Of a stretch of 64,000 nt of DNA, positions 21,836-64,000 are shown in pieces (within the stretch, counting starts at the first letter, position 1; each line of letters opens with the position of its first letter). The DNA lies in NCBI GenBank assembly GCA_958295975.1, contig OY282446.1, forward strand, positions 1,899,289-1,963,288. The letters are read 5' to 3'. This DNA is from Tepidiformaceae bacterium (GTDB lineage: Bacteria; Chloroflexota; Dehalococcoidia; Tepidiformales; Tepidiformaceae). Position numbers and translations under genes: made by a program. The notes beneath the pieces are model-generated. The model saw nothing but the letters and a program-made list of their open reading frames with translations. It did no database searches and was not told where the DNA came from.

Positions 21836-24399
21836 GTGAAGCTCGCCCCATCCCCGCTTAGGGCAAGTTATGCCCTGTGGCTCGTCGCGCTCGCACTGCT
21901 GGGCGCGACGCTCCTCGCGGTTGGGAACGACGCCGCCGCGCAGTCCACCGGGCCGTCCTTCGGCGCCGCCCAGGTCACCGTGGCGGTGGACAGCGCCACG
22001 AACCAGCAGGGCGAGGGCAGGGTCACCTGGATCGCCGGCACGGCCCTCGACGCCACCGGCGTCAACCGCCTGCCCACCTTCCCCACGGCCACGGGCGGCA
22101 CGGGGACCATCACCTACACGCTCACGGCGGATACCACCCGCGGCGTGGGCACGATCCCCCCCGGCCTCACCTTCAACGGGAGCGCCACGCCGCGCCCCAC
22201 GCTCACGGGCATGCCACCGCCCCCGCGGGCTTCTCCGACACGCACGTGCTCACCTACACCGCCACGGACGCGAACGGCATGACCGCCCAGCTCCCCTTCG
22301 TCGTCACCATTGAGGCCGACAGCATGCCGGCCTTCGCGCAAGGCACGTATTCCAAAACCTTCTACGTGGACCGCTACGAAGTCTGGGGCACGCCGCTGGT
22401 CGCGGGCGGCAACCATCGCTGGAGCCGCAACCAGTACTCGCTCTCGGGGACCCTGCCAACCAGCCTGTATTACCGGGGGAACGGCCAGCATCTGACCGCC
22501 ATGACCCCCGCGGCAAGCGGCATGTCCCGGATTTCGACGTTCGCGACGGTGGCGGAGGCGGACTACACCCTCACCTTCACGGACGCCAACGGCGACGAAG
22601 ACACCACGACGCTCAGGATCACGGTGGCGGACGCAACCAGTCCGGAATTCTTTGAGGACTCCGTCAGGATTCACTGGATCCTCAACGGGAAGGCCCGGAA
22701 CGCAGCCGTCCCCGCCCTCTCAACCAGCCCACCCATCCCGGTCGTCCTGTCGGGCGCGGGCGGGCCGGGCACGACCTACACGCTCAGCGGAGCGCTGCCG
22801 GCCGGGCTCAGCTGGACCGCGGCCACGCGCGTCATCAGCGGCACACCCACCGTGTCCGGCACGTTCCCGCTCACGCTCACGGCCACGGACACCAACGGCG
22901 CCAGCGACACGCAGGCCGTCACCATCATCGTGTCGCCGACGACCGCCCCCCGGAGCCTGAGGCGGAGCGCGGCTGACTGCACCACGATCACGATCCGCTG
23001 GGCGGCCCCGCGCGGGGGCAACCCGCCATCCGTCGGCTGGACGAACCCGACGATCACCGGCTACCGCATCGAGAGCAGGCAGCGCGGCGCCGCTGGCGGC
23101 TGGAGTTTCCTCTCGCAGGTCGCGGGCGCCACGACCAGCTACACCCACTCCAACCTCCCACCCGGCTCGCAGTGGTCCTACCGCGTCCGGGCGCTCACGG
23201 CGGGCGGCGTGAACCCGTGGTCCGCCGAGATCCTCGCCTCCACGGACTACAACGCCGCCAGCCCCTTCCGCACGGCGGAGGTGGGCACGGTCATCGCGCT
23301 CTTCGCCGAGGGACCCGACGGAGGCGACATCGCGCGCTACCAGTGGTACCGCTCGCCCGATCAGGCGTCGCTGGCCTGGACGCCCATCGCGGGCGCCACC
23401 GAGGGGTTCTACGAGGTCACCGCCGCCGACGTCGGGCAGCTCTTCGCATTCGAATTCCGCATCAATCAGTTCTACGATTCGTCGTCGGGCGCACGATTCA
23501 ACACCGAAGGGGAACCGTTCCGGCTGACGGACCGCTTCGATCCGGTCGTCGCCGACGACTCCCCGTCCTTCGCCACGAGCGGCGAACGCATCCTGGACCC
23601 GGGCAGTCCCGTCAACATCCAGCTGCCCACGCCCACGGGCGGCACTGGAACCGTCGTCCACACGCTCACCCCCGACCTGCCCGCCGGGCTCGTCTTCGAC
23701 GACACCGCCTTCACCATCACGGGCACGCCCCCGCCCGACTGGGCGGGCGACTACGCCTTCACCGCCCGCGACGAGGACTGCGACGCGGCCACCTACGCGC
23801 TCGCCATCGGCCCCGAGCCGATCATCCGGGAACCCGAACCGGAGTCGCCCGCGCCGTTCGTCCCGGCGACGCGCTACGGCGCCGTCACCGTCACCGTGGC
23901 CGCGGAGGGGAACGCGCCGGAGGACGCGGTCTACGGCGTCCGTCTCGCCTGCGGGCCGTCCGCCTTCACGCCCTCACTGGCCGCCGGGGAGAGCTATACC
24001 GCCTCGGTCGTGGCGGGCAGCCTCTGCGCGCTCAGCGTGACCGACCGGCAGGGCGCGTCCGAGGTGCGGGGCGAGTTCAGCGGCCGCCTCATCGGGGAGG
24101 GAAGCAGCGCCGCCACCGTCACGCTGGTCCACGAGGCCCCGGAAGAGCGGCTGGAAGCGACGCTCGTGGCGGGCCTGACCTTCGTGCGCTGGCGTGGCCC
24201 GGAGACGCCCGTGGCGGAGGCCGTGGCCGCGCTCACGCTGCGCGTCACCGCCGTACACCAGTGGGCCGTGGCCACGCAGTCGTGGCGCTCCTGGTCCCCC
24301 GGCGGCGAGGCCATCCCCGGCATGAACACGCTCGCCACGTTCGAGCCGGGCGGCATCTACTTCATCTTCGCCGAAGAGCGGGAGGACGCCGCGAACTGA
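21836..24399 (+). pseudogene. Secreted surface protein with putative-Ig (He_PIG) and Fn3 domains, single-base frameshift
   Basis: About 854 residues if repaired. The signal sequence ALWLVALALLGATLLAVG precedes a He_PIG-type module (FPTATGGTGTITYTLTAD, PPGLTF). The frame then breaks: the first frame stops at 22282, while homologous sequence (GFSDTHVLTYTATDANG) continues in the +1 frame from about 22215. One missing C near 22211-22216 would restore ATG-CCC-ACC. Later parts hold further Ig-like modules, an Fn3 domain (ITIRWAAPRGGNPP to PWSAEILAST, about residues 365-465) and GGTGTVVHTLTPDLPAGLVF. Likely an exported adhesin or structural protein. The break may be an assembly error. Confidence 0.75.
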
Positions 24400-43402: not shown

Positions 43403-45265
43403 TCAGGCGGGGCGCTGTTTCCCCTGGAAGGTGGGATGGGTCTGGTCGATCCAGAGCTCCTGGCTGATGGTCGTGCCGTAGGTGATGAAGAACGGCCCCT
43501 TGCGGCGCAGGTAGGGCCACTTCACCCAGCTGGTGAGGCCGCACACCATCTGCAGATGCCCTGCCCCCGCGTCCGTGAGGGCGAAGCGCTGGGCGTCCTT
43601 GACGATCTCCTGCGCCCGCTCGTTGTCGAACTCGGCGAACATGTCCTCGATGTACGCCTCCATGGTCGGGGTCGTGTACTTCCAGAAGTTGATGGTGCCG
43701 CGCCCGCCGTCCTCGGGGTGGGCCGAGTAAACCTGCGCGAAGCGGGTGCGCGGGTCGGGGCTGTTCCACTGATCCCAGCCGCCGAGGTACCCCACCGAGG
43801 CCTGCCCGGAGTTGTTGTACTCCAGCAGCGAGGTGACGGGGATGGCCTGCGCGGTCCACTTCTCCGTGCCCAGGTTCGCGTTCAGCATCGCCGGGAACCA
43901 CTCCAGCAGGGGCACGTACTGGGGAAAGTCCACGGTGGTCACGCGGAAGTCGACGTCTTCGTGGCTTTCCGCGTCGGCCTGCTCCCAGAGGGCGCGGGCG
44001 TCGGCGATGTCCTCGTCCTTGGGCTGGCGGTAGCCCGGCGCCTGCGAGAGCTCCTCCTGCGAAAGCGCCCACGCCGTGAAGGGCCAGTTGACCGCCGGGT
44101 TCGGGCGGCCCAAGCCCCCGAAGTGCTGCTCCGCCACCAACGCGCGGTCGGTGGCGAGGAACATGGCCGTGCGGATGCGCTCGTCGGAGAGCGCGCGGTT
44201 GGTCGTGTAGTTGTAGGCGAACTCGAGGTTGTTGTTCGGGTCGCCGATGCGGAAGGACTCCACGTCAGGGTTGTTGGACGCGATCTCCTCCATCACCACA
44301 CGGTCGCGCGAGGCCAGCTCGTCGATCTGCTTCTGCTCGAAGGCGAGCCGCTGCGGGTTGATGTCGCCGCCGAGGTTGACGAAGAACAGCTCGTCCACCA
44401 TCCCCGGGATGGTGCCGTCGCGGCGCAGGAAGTAGTCGTCGTTGCGCACGCCGTGGGCGCGATCCTGCAGCTCAAACTCGTCGAAGATGAACGGCCCCGT
44501 GCCCAGCACGTTGTCGGCGTTGAAGATGCCGAACTCGTTGTCGTCCTCCAGCTTCTCGCCGATGTCGGGGTAGAGGATCGAGTTGAACTCGTCCGTCATG
44601 TCGCCGAGCCACGTCACCTGCGGCGAGCTCATGGTCACGGTGAAGTTGGTGTCATCGACGTAATCGATGCTCTCGATGTTCTTGTAGATGAGCGGGTGGC
44701 GGAAGAACGTGGTGTCCTCGGTGCCGTCCGCGCGCGTGCTCGTGCGCTGGCGCTCGATGTTCCAGCGGATGTCGTCCATGGTCACGGCGCGCCCGTCGGC
44801 GGGCGGCTTGTTGTGGTAGTTCACGTCGTCGCGGATGGTGAAGGCGTAGGTCAGCTGGTCCGGCTGCTCCGGCAGCCCGCGCGCGATCTCGCCCGAGATC
44901 ACGAAGTTGTCCATGTCCGTGAACTTGAGCAGGTTGTTGTAGGCGTTGCCCGCCGTGTAGGCGATGCCCCGGTACAGCTCGCGGTGCAGGTCCAGCGTGG
45001 TGCCGCTGATGCCCGTGTACTGGCTGAAGAAGCTCCCGTCCGTCGCGCCCATCATGGCCGCCTCGGTGGGGGCGGCGGTGGCCGTCGCGGCCTGCGTGGC
45101 GGCCTCCGTCGGGGGGGGGGCGGCCGTGGGCGTGTCGTCATCGTCGTCGTCGCCGCAGCCCACGGCCACGAGCGCGCCAGCGCCGGCGGCGCCCGCCGCC
45201 GACGCCTTCAGGACCGCCCGCCGGCTGAGCCGCCGCCGGGTCCAGTAGTTTTCGCGCATGTGCAT
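43403..45265 (-). CDS. Peptide/nickel-type ABC transporter substrate-binding lipoprotein
   Basis: 620-residue SBP_bac_5 protein. A Tat-like SRRAVLK motif followed by lipobox LVAVGC (Cys37), then an acidic DDDDDD/PPPTEAATQAAT linker to about residue 70. The mature domain has a GRAVTMDDIRWNIERQ and FAYNYTTNRALSDERIRTAM cluster-C pattern. It binds peptides or other substrates outside the membrane. The first Met is MHM (ATG 45265); ATG 45259 is also possible. It heads the operon with two permease genes. Confidence 0.9.
   Translation of the reverse strand: MHMRENYWTRRRLSRRAVLKASAAGAAGAGALVAVGCGDDDDDDTPTAAPPPTEAATQAATATAAPTEAAMMGATDGSFFSQYTGISGTTLDLHRELYRGIAYTAGNAYNNLLKFTDMDNFVISGEIARGLPEQPDQLTYAFTIRDDVNYHNKPPADGRAVTMDDIRWNIERQRTSTRADGTEDTTFFRHPLIYKNIESIDYVDDTNFTVTMSSPQVTWLGDMTDEFNSILYPDIGEKLEDDNEFGIFNADNVLGTGPFIFDEFELQDRAHGVRNDDYFLRRDGTIPGMVDELFFVNLGGDINPQRLAFEQKQIDELASRDRVVMEEIASNNPDVESFRIGDPNNNLEFAYNYTTNRALSDERIRTAMFLATDRALVAEQHFGGLGRPNPAVNWPFTAWALSQEELSQAPGYRQPKDEDIADARALWEQADAESHEDVDFRVTTVDFPQYVPLLEWFPAMLNANLGTEKWTAQAIPVTSLLEYNNSGQASVGYLGGWDQWNSPDPRTRFAQVYSAHPEDGGRGTINFWKYTTPTMEAYIEDMFAEFDNERAQEIVKDAQRFALTDAGAGHLQMVCGLTSWVKWPYLRRKGPFFITYGTTISQELWIDQTHPTFQGKQRPA
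45111..45120. repeat. G10 homopolymer in the binding-protein linker
   Basis: Ten consecutive G on the plus strand (C10 in the coding strand), encoding part of PPPT at residues about 49-52. It lies just after the lipobox; any change in length would truncate the mature protein. Confidence 0.9.
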
Positions 45266-60601: not shown

Positions 60602-60640
60602 GGCGCGCTGCGTATCATGCGCCCGACCGGAGGATGGACC

Positions 60641-61333
60641 ATGAGCCGCTGGATCATCGCCGTGCAGGCCCTCGTCATCGCCGCCCTCGCGGGTCTCGCC
60701 ATCGCCGCCGCGCAGGGCGCCTTCACGAGCGTCGAGGTGCGCGTCTGGCAGGACACGCGGGACGATCGCAACCTCTACCTCTCCGCCCGCTACGAGGGCG
60801 GCAGCTGGCGCACGCTGGGCACCGTGCCCGTGGACGTGAGCCGCGTGAGCGCCTCCGGGCGCTGGCGCTACGGGGACATCGTCCTCACCGTGCCCGTGCC
60901 CGACTCGCCCCTGCCTCCCGGCGAAGCGGACGCCGCCCGCCGCCGCTGCGAGAACGCGGCGCTGACCGCGCTGCAGGCCTCGGACGCGGTCTACGAGCAG
61001 GCGATCGCCGCCTACGTCGCGCGCGTCGGGGAGCTGGATCGCGCGGGACAGGCCGCGCTGGACGTCATGCTGGCCGCGCAGGCCGAGGCCGAGCGCGTGC
61101 GCGACGCGGCCCTCGACGCCGCCGGCGAGGACGGCGACGTGATCGAGGCCGCGGACGCCGCCTACCAGCGCGCGCAGGACGAAGCGCAGCGCGTGTTCGA
61201 GGAGGGCGAGACGGAGCGCGTGAGCGAGCGCGCGGAGCTGGATCGGACCCACGAGGCCGCGGGCGCCGCCCGCGAGAAGGCCGCCGCGGACTACGCGACG
61301 ACGGTGGCGCGCTGCGACGGCGCCGATCAATAG
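60641..61333 (+). CDS. Exported/membrane-anchored coiled-coil protein of unknown function
   Basis: 230 residues. N-terminal signal anchor WIIAVQALVIAALAGLAIAA, a short beta-rich domain (VEVRVWQDTRDDRNLYLSAR, GTVPVDVSRVSASGRWRYG) and a long helical, Ala/Glu-rich C-terminus (about residues 100-225) with predicted coiled-coil character. GGAGG and a TATCAT box (60613-60618) precede ATG 60641. No family recognised. Confidence 0.78.
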   Translation: MSRWIIAVQALVIAALAGLAIAAAQGAFTSVEVRVWQDTRDDRNLYLSARYEGGSWRTLGTVPVDVSRVSASGRWRYGDIVLTVPVPDSPLPPGEADAARRRCENAALTALQASDAVYEQAIAAYVARVGELDRAGQAALDVMLAAQAEAERVRDAALDAAGEDGDVIEAADAAYQRAQDEAQRVFEEGETERVSERAELDRTHEAAGAAREKAAADYATTVARCDGADQ

Positions 61334-61387
61334 GGCTCACTCCCCGTGTGCTACACTCCCGCCGAATCGGGACGGGAGGAAGAGCGC

Positions 61388-61943
61388 ATGGCCGGGAGGC
61401 TGGCCCCCACGACCACGGACGCCGTCCGCGCGTACGGGTACGACGGCGAGGAGCTGGAGCGGCAGCTCGCGGCGGCGCGGCGTCTGGACGCCGAGTGCCC
61501 GCGCGCCGTGTTCCACTCCGCCGAAGGCCGCGGCAAGGCCATCCAGCTGCTGGACGCGGGCTACAACCCGGAGTCGATGATGGGCGCCACCTGGACCGAG
61601 GGGCGGACGCTCGCGGTCACGCGGGACTGGGAGTTCGCCCCTTACGCCCCCCCCCCCCCACAACTCCATCCTGTTCGCCTTCCACACGAACTACCCCTTC
61701 GCCGGTGAGAGCTGGGGGCTGGCCGTGGGCGACGAGCTGGACTTCGCGGTGCTCGATTCGCACGGCATGGGGCAGTGCTCGCCGGTGGACGCCTGGGAGT
61801 GGTTCGGGCCGGACGGCCTGAACGCGGTCGTCTACCGCGCGCCCGACTTCGCCCCGCCCACCATCGCCGACCGCATCGCCTTCTACCTGGACAAGGGCTG
61901 GGACGCCTCCGAACTGCTCGAGCGCGAGCTCCGGGCGGTGTGA
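61388..61943 (+). pseudogene. Unknown protein, frame broken at a C13 tract
   Basis: A 184-residue protein if the poly-C run (61647-61659) held 12 rather than 13 C. Part 1 (residues 1-86) includes RLDAECPRAVFHSAEGRGKA and NPESMMGATW; after APPP the second frame gives NSILFAFHTNYPFAGESWGL, AVGDELDFAVLDSHGMGQ and a helical end ELLERELRAV. As sequenced, the first frame ends after about 106 codons. A TACACT box at 61352-61357 and GGGAGGAAGAG precede ATG 61388. Function unknown. Confidence 0.7.
61647..61659 (+). repeat. C13 homopolymer at the frame break
   Basis: Thirteen consecutive C. Twelve (or any length 3n) would keep the frame. It sits in the middle of a gene that otherwise encodes one continuous protein. 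Confidence 0.95.
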
Positions 61944-62107
61944 CGGCCCCTCCGCCCGTCGGAGTGTGGGAGGGTTAGGGTTGCCGACCGTTTCCCGATG
62001 TACTAAGCTGCCCGCGACGGCGTTGATCGCGCTTCGCGTTCGAGCATCGCCCGGTGGATAACCAGCGCTGGAACGACGACTACAGGATGGGCCGGAAGGA
62101 AAGAGAC
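61944..62107. other. Intergenic region with promoter-like repeat R1
   Basis: Holds repeat R1 (61974-62008): TTGCCG (61981-61986), 17-nt spacer, TAAGCT (62004-62009), which could be the promoter of the small membrane zinc-ribbon gene. A GTG-started 18-codon extension of that gene (62054) is also here. Confidence 0.55.
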
Positions 62108-62523
62108 ATGGAAATCGCTATTATCAGTGCTATGGGAGTGATCATCGCAGCGCTACTCGGAGTCTTCGCTTTCAGGATCGATATGGTCGGTCTGTTGAAG
62201 CGGAACGACGAACGCAAGATCATGCGCGCCCGGATGGCTTGTCCGCACATGACCATGCAGTCGCGTGAAGACGGTATCGCGTATCAGATCATGCCGACGT
62301 CTCCGCCGATGACTCATCAGGCCGTCTGCCCGATGTGTCAGAAGATATTCCCGACGCTCGACGATGCGGTGGCGGAAGTCAAAACTTGGTTTCGCGAGGA
62401 CGACGTTGCCGCGTCTGTGGAAGTGTGGGCCCGAAAGATGAACGAATTTAACAAGGCTGTTCGTCGCCTCTGACCAGCTAACGCCGAAAGTTAGGTTGCC
62501 GAACGTTTCTTGGCTTCCTAAGC
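61974..62523 (+). repeat. Direct repeats R1/R2 flanking the small membrane zinc-ribbon gene
   Basis: R1 61974-62008 and R2 62490-62523 match at 27 of 35 aligned positions, including GTTAGG, TTGCCGA, CGTTTC and CTAAGC. Both carry TTGCCG-N17-TAAGC(T/A). Confidence 0.7.
62108..62473 (+). CDS. Small membrane protein with a zinc-ribbon-like CxxC region
   Basis: 121 residues from ATG 62108, chosen for GGAAGGA 8 nt upstream; GTG 62054 or ATG 62087 would add an N-terminal extension. N-terminal TM IAIISAMGVIIAALLGVFAF, then a cytoplasmic part with ACPHM and AVCPMCQKIF that may bind a metal, and a helical C-terminus (FREDDVAASVEVWARKMNEF). GC is low compared with neighbours. Flanked by R1 and R2. Unknown function. 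Confidence 0.7.
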   Translation: MEIAIISAMGVIIAALLGVFAFRIDMVGLLKRNDERKIMRARMACPHMTMQSREDGIAYQIMPTSPPMTHQAVCPMCQKIFPTLDDAVAEVKTWFREDDVAASVEVWARKMNEFNKAVRRL

Positions 62524-62747
62524 ACTACATAAATGCACGGCTCCTCAGCGCAGCACCAGCTGGCAGCGCTGGACACGGCCCGTCTCCTTGATCCCGCCCG
62601 TGTAGACGCGCCACACGGCTGTGCAGATTCAGGCTCCGTCCGTGTGATGTATGTTCAGTGCAGGGGGTGTCGAAACGGTAGGCAACCCAAACCCCCTCCA
62701 CGCCGCCCCGCTTGCGCGCCCGCGCCCCGCGCGCGTACAACTCCCGC
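62474..62747. other. Intergenic region with repeat R2 and a possible gene remnant
   Basis: Holds R2 (62490-62523) and, on the minus strand (62545 to about 62630), a stop-bounded 29-codon fragment containing VYTGGIKETGRVQRCQLVLR that ends in TGA; it may be a degraded 3' end of a gene. Nothing else is recognised before GTG 62748. Confidence 0.45.
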
Positions 62748-64000
62748 GTGAGCGTCAGCGTCCCCCTGCCCCATCCCCGCGGCCCCCTCAGCGGCTACCG
62801 CGTGCTCGACCTCGCCGACGAGAAGGGGCAGCTCTGCGCGCGCCTGCTGGGCGAGCTGGGCGCGGACGTGATCAAGGTCGAGCCGCGCGAGGGCCACGCC
62901 ACGCGCGCCAACGGCCCCTTCTACCGCGACGAGGCCGGGCGCGAGTCCAGCCTCTGGTGGTGGGCCATGAACGCGGGCAAGCGCTCCGTCACCTGCGAGC
63001 CGCGCGTGGCCGCGGGCCGCGAGCTGCTCCACCGCCTCGCGGCCGCCGCCGACGCCGTGATCGAGACGAGCGCGCCCGGCTCGGAAGAGGCGAAGGCGCA
63101 GGGCGCGGACCCGCGTGCGCTCATGCGCGCCAATCCGGGGGCCGTGGTCGTGAGCGTCACCAACTTCGGCCAGAGCGGCCCCCTGCGCGCGCTGCCCGCC
63201 ACCGACATCGTGGCCTCGGCGATGGGCGGGCACATGCACCTGAACGGCAGCGACGAGTGCGGCCCCGTGCGCACGACCGTGCCCCAGGCGTACGCCCAGG
63301 TGAACGCGCAGGCGGCGGTGGGGACGGTGATCGCGCTCTACGCGCGCGGCGCCAACGGGGGCCTCGGCCAGCACGTCGACGTCTCCATGCAGGAGGCCAT
63401 GACGAACGCCATGGACAACGCGCAGCAGACGTGGGACCTGCTCGGCGTGAACAACCGCGGGCCCGGTTCGGGGCGCATGATCGCGGGGCGGCAGGGGCCG
63501 CGCTACATCTACGAGACGGCGGACGGCTGGGTGGCGGCGCTCTCCTTCGGCGGGCTCATGGGGCCGAGCGCGAACGCCATGATCGACTGGCTCGACGAGG
63601 CGGGCGAGGCGGGACCGCTGGCCGCGCCCCACTGGCGCGCGCGGCTGGAGACGGTGCAGCCGCTGGAAGCGGACGAGCAGGCCCTGCTGGTGGGGGCGAT
63701 GGAGCGCTTCTGCCGCCCGCGCCGCAAGGACGAGCTGGTGGCCGGGGCGCAGGCGCGCGGCGCGGGCTGGGCGCCCGTCTACGGCCCGCGCGAGATCGTG
63801 GAGTGCGGGCAGCTGGCCGCGCGCGACTACTGGGTGCGCGTGCCCCACGACGACATCGGCGAGTCCTTCGTCTATCCGGGCGCGCCCTTCATCCTCTCGC
63901 GCACGCCCTGGAAGCAGCGCGGGCGCGCCCCCCACGTGGGCGAACACAACGACGACGTGTACGGCGGGCTGCTGGGGCTCGCCGACGATGAACGCGCCCG
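62748..64000 (+). CDS. CaiB/BaiF (class III) CoA-transferase, 3' end cut by window edge
   Basis: Starts at GTG 62748 and runs off the window after 417 codons. LSGYRVLDLADEKGQLCARL, GADVIKVEPREGHATRANGP, NAGKRSVTCEPRVAAGRELL and SVTNFGQSGPLRALPATD are the family signature. The N-terminus is closely like module 1 of the fused enzyme at 5023-7455, so this gene may also continue into a second CoA-transferase module beyond the window. Confidence 0.88.
   Translation, partial: MSVSVPLPHPRGPLSGYRVLDLADEKGQLCARLLGELGADVIKVEPREGHATRANGPFYRDEAGRESSLWWWAMNAGKRSVTCEPRVAAGRELLHRLAAAADAVIETSAPGSEEAKAQGADPRALMRANPGAVVVSVTNFGQSGPLRALPATDIVASAMGGHMHLNGSDECGPVRTTVPQAYAQVNAQAAVGTVIALYARGANGGLGQHVDVSMQEAMTNAMDNAQQTWDLLGVNNRGPGSGRMIAGRQGPRYIYETADGWVAALSFGGLMGPSANAMIDWLDEAGEAGPLAAPHWRARLETVQPLEADEQALLVGAMERFCRPRRKDELVAGAQARGAGWAPVYGPREIVECGQLAARDYWVRVPHDDIGESFVYPGAPFILSRTPWKQRGRAPHVGEHNDDVYGGLLGLADDERA

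Follow-up and report, generated by a model that had tools for sequence, protein, structure and literature searches.

Phase-variable homopolymers in other bacteria

The closest described parallels to the locus reported here are the G/C contingency loci of the high-GC Bordetella. As in the genome that we studied, the homopolymers at those loci are longer than expected by chance, and a change of one base in their length shifts the reading frame (PMC1891110). According to the same paper, many of the Bordetella tracts fall in genes whose products are possible host-interaction targets. A second parallel is the simple-sequence-repeat phase variation of Neisseria, where homopolymers also lie inside the coding sequences of surface proteins (PMC3723659). 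Most phase-variation targets elsewhere are described as exposed to the environment of the cell (PMC3711429), and phage predation is named as one pressure tied to such switching (PMC6625227).

The present locus is a run of 13 C (positions 61647-61659, plus strand) within a gene that we refer to as X. It lies in a 64-kb stretch of DNA, hereafter the window (G000:C1:1899289-1963288), from a genome that is assembled as one contig of 2,401,284 bases and is 96% complete. Length polymorphism in Bordetella was measured across strains and within cultures, whereas here tract length is known from one assembly, and the C6-C8 and G10 examples given for Bordetella (PMC1891110) are shorter than the present tracts. 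For Neisseria, a host-adapted pathogen, both strain and expression data exist; the bacterium considered here is uncultured, and in it X is an orphan. The phase-variation clusters of GeneTack, as defined in PMC3711429, pair a characteristic repeat close to the frame shift with a function already tied to phase variation. X has only the repeat, and its sibling tract genes for sugar and surface proteins come nearer to having both. The portion of the literature available to us on phase variation in Chloroflexota/Chloroflexi, Dehalococcoidia, SAR202 and sponge symbionts held no earlier report. The mechanism is known, and its setting (Chloroflexota, probably Dehalococcoidia) is apparently new.

A frame change at the C13 tract of gene X

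Counting both of its coding frames, gene X occupies positions 61388-61943 of the plus strand, and the C13 tract sits exactly at the junction of these frames. As assembled, X runs from an ATG to a premature stop past the tract (61388-61708, plus strand; 106 codons and a stop codon). The C-terminal half (61662-61943, plus strand) is in a frame that is one base off and ends at a TGA of its own. On the 5' side of the ATG we read a GGGAGGA that could serve as a Shine-Dalgarno sequence (61374-61380, plus strand), and further upstream a possible extended -10 element, TGTGCTACACT, was picked by eye (61347-61357, plus strand). The tract is the only C/G run longer than 10 in the window, where the next longest is a G10 at 45111.

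We trained a codon model on 61 long ORFs (26,323 codons) from the same genome. It assigned plus-strand frames to the two flanks of the tract by margins of 38 and 39 bits, and these frames are offset by one base. Third-position GC is 0.96 in both 150-base flanks, and its phase differs from one flank to the other. Both halves of X are coding, and the frame change sits at the C13 tract. These results bear out the original prediction, which had placed the tract at the meeting point of two frames of one protein. Its second claim, that 12 C would give a continuous protein of 184 residues, was likewise correct: removing one base yields an X of 184 codons, and any other tract length divisible by three would serve as well. 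X shows no second lesion besides the frameshift at the tract, which lies in the middle of the gene, at codon 87.

Searches of X against Pfam, NCBIfam, PADLOC and PHROG gave no family match, and inspection by eye for a signal peptide found none that was recognisable. The fold model of X (mean pLDDT 39) was too poor for a structure search. A match to the PDB sequence 2ytv, with an E-value of 0.07, was set aside as chance.

Long C/G runs across the genome

The whole genome contains 28 C/G runs of at least 8 bases, counting both strands, and no run of A10 or T10. Ten of these C/G runs have a length of 8, four of 9 and six of 10, none has a length of 11 or 12, three have a length of 13, one of 14, one of 15, two of 17 and one of 18. 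The lengths therefore fall into a class of 20 runs at 8-10 and a class of eight runs at 13-18, to which the tract in X belongs. Markov models of orders 2-5, fitted to 278 kb of the genome from which long runs had been excised, predict 0.08-0.38 runs of at least 13, so that the eight observed represent an over twentyfold excess. The same models predict about 95-189 runs of at least 8, and hence the 28 observed are rarer than predicted. In a dinucleotide shuffle of the window, which is a much less strict test than the Markov models, runs of 9 had a mean of 1.83, compared with seven matches in the actual sequence.

According to PMC9262707, only 18 genomes among 1,598 genera exceed one homopolymer longer than 10 per 100 kb, and the present genome, with eight long runs in 2.4 Mb, lies under that line. 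The argument made here therefore rests on the gap in length and on the bias in gene content, and not on density.

Genes that carry the long tracts

The other seven long tracts are found in three secreted Ig/fn3 paralogs (family A), two PMT-type glycosyltransferases (family B), one sugar transferase and one unassigned gene. Long G/C tracts in this genome are biased to genes for surface proteins and envelope sugars.

The three family A paralogs, at genome positions 250535 (C13), 303260 (C14) and 2087661 (C17), are 71-76% identical over 1.6 kb and encode proteins with He_PIG and fn3 domains. All three have the C tract at a homologous site just past the start codon, at lengths of 13, 14 and 17. 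Ahead of the tract stand, in this order, TTGAC(A/G), 17-18 bases on a -10-like TA(C/A)AA(C/T) or TAAATT that was picked by eye, GGAG, an ATG or GTG and two further codons; a hydrophobic leader follows it. Read from this start, the C13 copy alone is in frame. Family A proteins were also sought in the genus mates, where they were not found.

A fourth family A copy, an Ig-repeat gene, lies within the window (21836-22596, plus strand) and is probably a pseudogene, its tract having decayed to CCCCATCCCC. It has AGG where the other three have an ATG following the tract, yet its GTG frame is open through the leader, to be broken near 22210, at a short C run. This suggests that the true start of family A is the one before the tract, although the fourth copy breaks further on. 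The fourth copy looks like a tract gene that was first locked and then lost.

The two family B glycosyltransferases, at 785691 (tract length 18) and 1323981 (17), are 85.6% identical, and in both the frames 5' and 3' of the tract disagree. A homolog in OY282355.1 ('uncultured Dehalococcoidia bacterium, chromosome 1') is 55% identical and intact at the tract site, where it has an ordinary loop instead of a tract; two further matches, from Bacteroidetes, are 26-27% identical. The OY282355.1 homolog is the one close named relative that we found for any gene of this genome, and by this single gene the lineage would be Dehalococcoidia (Chloroflexota). Both PMT paralogs (L012 and L013) also possess an ATG right before the G tract that is in frame with the downstream part. 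A shorter product from this ATG is possible, and tract length might select between the two starts.

The tract at 87800 (length 15) follows MPDAD at the N-terminal end of a Bac_transf sugar transferase (PF02397, 8.5e-55), which it leaves out of frame. This gene and a GT2 gene overlap at the ATG of the former and the stop of the latter, a gene for UDP-glucose dehydrogenase comes next, and the arrangement forms an exopolysaccharide cluster. The tract at 2360491 (length 13) lies at the end of the unassigned gene, whose C-terminal tail would vary with tract length.

Frame states and reliability of the assembly

We judged the frame of seven tract genes, a set that includes X and leaves out the decayed family A copy and the gene at 2360491. 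Six of these are out of frame and one is in frame, where random lengths would put about two thirds out. As a control for assembly quality, we compared short and long runs with clear coding on both sides, defined as the same strand, both scores above 0 and both margins above 5 bits. Nine short and five long runs were excluded by a strand switch or by lack of clear coding on one side. Runs of 8-10 were in frame in 10 of 11 cases and long runs in none of three (hypergeometric 4/364 = 0.011), and the sole exception among the short runs, at 2399365, had a low margin. The frame kept by 10 of the 11 intragenic runs of 8-10 speaks against a general fault of the assembly at shorter homopolymers, and the assembly looks reliable at runs up to 10. 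At runs of at least 13 the assembly count may be off by one; nanopore consensus is described as resolving homopolymers well only below 11 (PMC9262707).

The tract could accordingly be real and its length miscounted by one in the assembly, X being intact and stable in the organism. This is in keeping with PMC9262707, which describes the resolution of homopolymers above about 10 as unreliable, and the genome, being one 2.4-Mb contig, probably derives from long reads. Miscounts would also produce the out-of-frame state found in six of the seven judged genes. However, a miscount leaves unexplained why runs of 13-18 occur without runs of 11-12, why they fall in one gene class and why paralogs retain them, and a real C12 within a gene would itself be expected to be unstable. 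We therefore consider a stable, miscounted tract unlikely.

The original prediction had offered a phase-variable locus and a homopolymer error as its two readings. The former is strongly, if indirectly, supported by the class of eight long tracts, by the differing lengths at homologous sites of paralogs and by the bias to surface and sugar genes. Against the latter, in the sense of a pure artefact, it speaks that a sequencer would not put tracts into one gene class and that runs of 8-10 keep their frame; as a one-base miscount it keeps the standing given above.

Relatives of X and its insertion site

Relatives of X were sought with its two halves separately and with one read-through protein. 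With the whole of X as query, no relative came up in 392 further genomes from the class or in viral contigs, plasmids or phages, and the C-terminal half gave none in 59 other relatives or in the genome contigs. With the N-terminal half, searched in 60 genomes, there were matches in G006 (39% over 59 residues, E-value 0.004) and G017 (E-value 0.008) that were too weak to use; they were absent when the full X was the query at an E-value of 0.001. A search for the same tract in related genomes had been proposed as a check on the original prediction, and gene X was in none of the genomes searched.

The stretch between hflX and a CoA-transferase gene, in which X is located, measures about 2.2 kb here (60602-62789) versus 113-992 bp in all eight genus mates. 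Nothing similar to X or its two neighbours in the insert is found in the corresponding stretches of these eight genomes. In five of the eight (L133, L134, L135, L137 and L138), direct repeats of 14-26 bp that include the 3' end of hflX bracket a variable gap of 0.3-1.0 kb, which suggests that the junction is a site gaining and losing DNA. Considering that X has no relatives in the genomes searched and that the insert is absent at this place from the mates, we regard X as a lineage-specific gene at a variable site.

The upstream neighbour in the insert (60617-61333, plus strand) is a predicted secreted protein with a domain, VEVRVWQDTRDDRNLYLSARYEGG, and without a match in Pfam, NCBIfam, PADLOC or PHROG. 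This domain has 40 matches in the present genome and 3-46 in each of the eight genus mates, often in large ORFs, and 0 matches in the 15 other family members and 16 class members searched. It is apparently expanded and genus-specific. The downstream neighbour (62108-62473, plus strand) is an orphan ORF with a low GC of 0.557 and an N-terminal hydrophobic segment recognised by eye. An imperfect direct repeat (61974-62010 and 62490-62525; GTTAGGGTTGCCGACCGTTTC and GTTAGGTTGCCGAACGTTTC) flanks this ORF, and the two copies may mark the borders of a small mobile piece.

These surroundings raise the question of decay, in which X would be a young or foreign gene falling apart at a variable site and the tract would be the mutation that broke it. 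X is indeed an orphan, the stretch around it is absent at the same place in the eight genus mates, the GC of the neighbouring ORF is deviant, and the family A copy in the window is already broken. Yet both flanks of the tract show strong codon bias, no second lesion is seen in X, and a one-base break needs no run of 13 bases, which together make decay quite improbable. Programmed slippage of RNA polymerase or the ribosome on the C run, yielding short and full-length X from one sequence, is very improbable: PMC3711429 describes homopolymers of at least 8 as able to mediate programmed transcriptional realignment, but names adenine or thymine runs as the motifs typical of it, and the sibling tracts here fall in several frame classes without a single conserved shift.

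X as a candidate slipped-strand switch

We conclude that the C13 tract in X is probably a slipped-strand locus of the contingency type that was recorded in its OFF frame. The tract is longer than composition predicts, and a unit change in its length alters the frame. Differences in length are seen between paralogous tracts in the same genome (13, 14 and 17 in family A; 18 and 17 in family B). At such a locus, the C run would gain or lose one C during replication. At lengths that are a multiple of three, X would be translated into a single protein of about 184 residues. At other lengths the frame would be lost at the tract, after codon 86, and in the recorded state a stop would follow after 106 residues, giving an OFF or short form. 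Such a switch would entail a tract of changing length in living cells, production of X from the in-frame state and selection for switching. By analogy with its sibling tract genes, X could conceivably act in envelope or surface biology.

Several observations count against switching. Whereas most of its sibling tract genes encode surface proteins or envelope-sugar enzymes, X is not recognisable as a surface protein, and its tract lies mid-gene, whereas those of family A and the Bac_transf gene lie near the start. In addition, because X has no relatives in the genomes and contigs searched, there is neither an in-frame copy of it elsewhere nor conservation of its tract.

Tracts in genus mates

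Matches to C12 or longer number 3, 29, 23, 6, 26, 0, 2 and 0 in the eight genus mates, and eight of 27 other family members have any C12 run. The zeros, G006 and G008, are two of the eight mates and also count against switching. The high counts in G002, G003 and G005 (29, 23 and 26) were rejected as support, as many of these runs are near contig ends and clustered. In G002, G003, G005 and G007, poly-C and poly-G up to 60 long occur at or near contig ends, often in clusters. Most of the G005 runs that we retrieved, and a C60 in G007, resemble low-complexity contig ends, and such contig-end runs in the draft mates are probably short-read artefacts.

We fetched 20 tract places, 15 from genus mates, one from G020 and four from G055, and obtained the gene context for nine. 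The argument uses L103, L106, L107 and L108, which are isolated runs away from contig ends. It leaves out L111, L112 and L114 (G005, away from ends), as well as L117-L121 (G020 and G055), which showed no clear pattern. The isolated C15-C16 runs, found in G001, G004 (two) and G007, all coincide with the beginning of a long ORF that encodes a hydrophobic leader or precede it by up to about 80 bases (4/4). Fn3 domains were present in all three of the genus-mate tract proteins scanned, and in the G007 gene the C15 falls within the N-terminal codons, in frame. Isolated C15-C16 runs at genes for secreted fn3 proteins thus indicate that such tracts recur in the genus.

Taking this genome and its mates together, we lean narrowly towards a genus-wide arrangement, in which a genome-wide set of poly-C/G contingency loci would shuffle secreted Ig/fn3 proteins, glycosyltransferases, the first exopolysaccharide sugar transfer and orphans such as X in a combinatorial switching of the surface. 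If true, at least six surface or sugar tract genes in a small-genome uncultured bacterium imply a fluctuating antagonist, be it phage, grazer or host. Annotators should be warned that such tract genes get called broken in these genomes.

At three of the isolated tracts in G001 and G004 (L103, L107 and L108), upstream of the secreted-protein genes, the C15-C16 run is directly followed by a shared near-palindrome (GAATACATGTTC, GAATTTATGTTC and GAATATTTGTTC), which we take to resemble LexA-type boxes.
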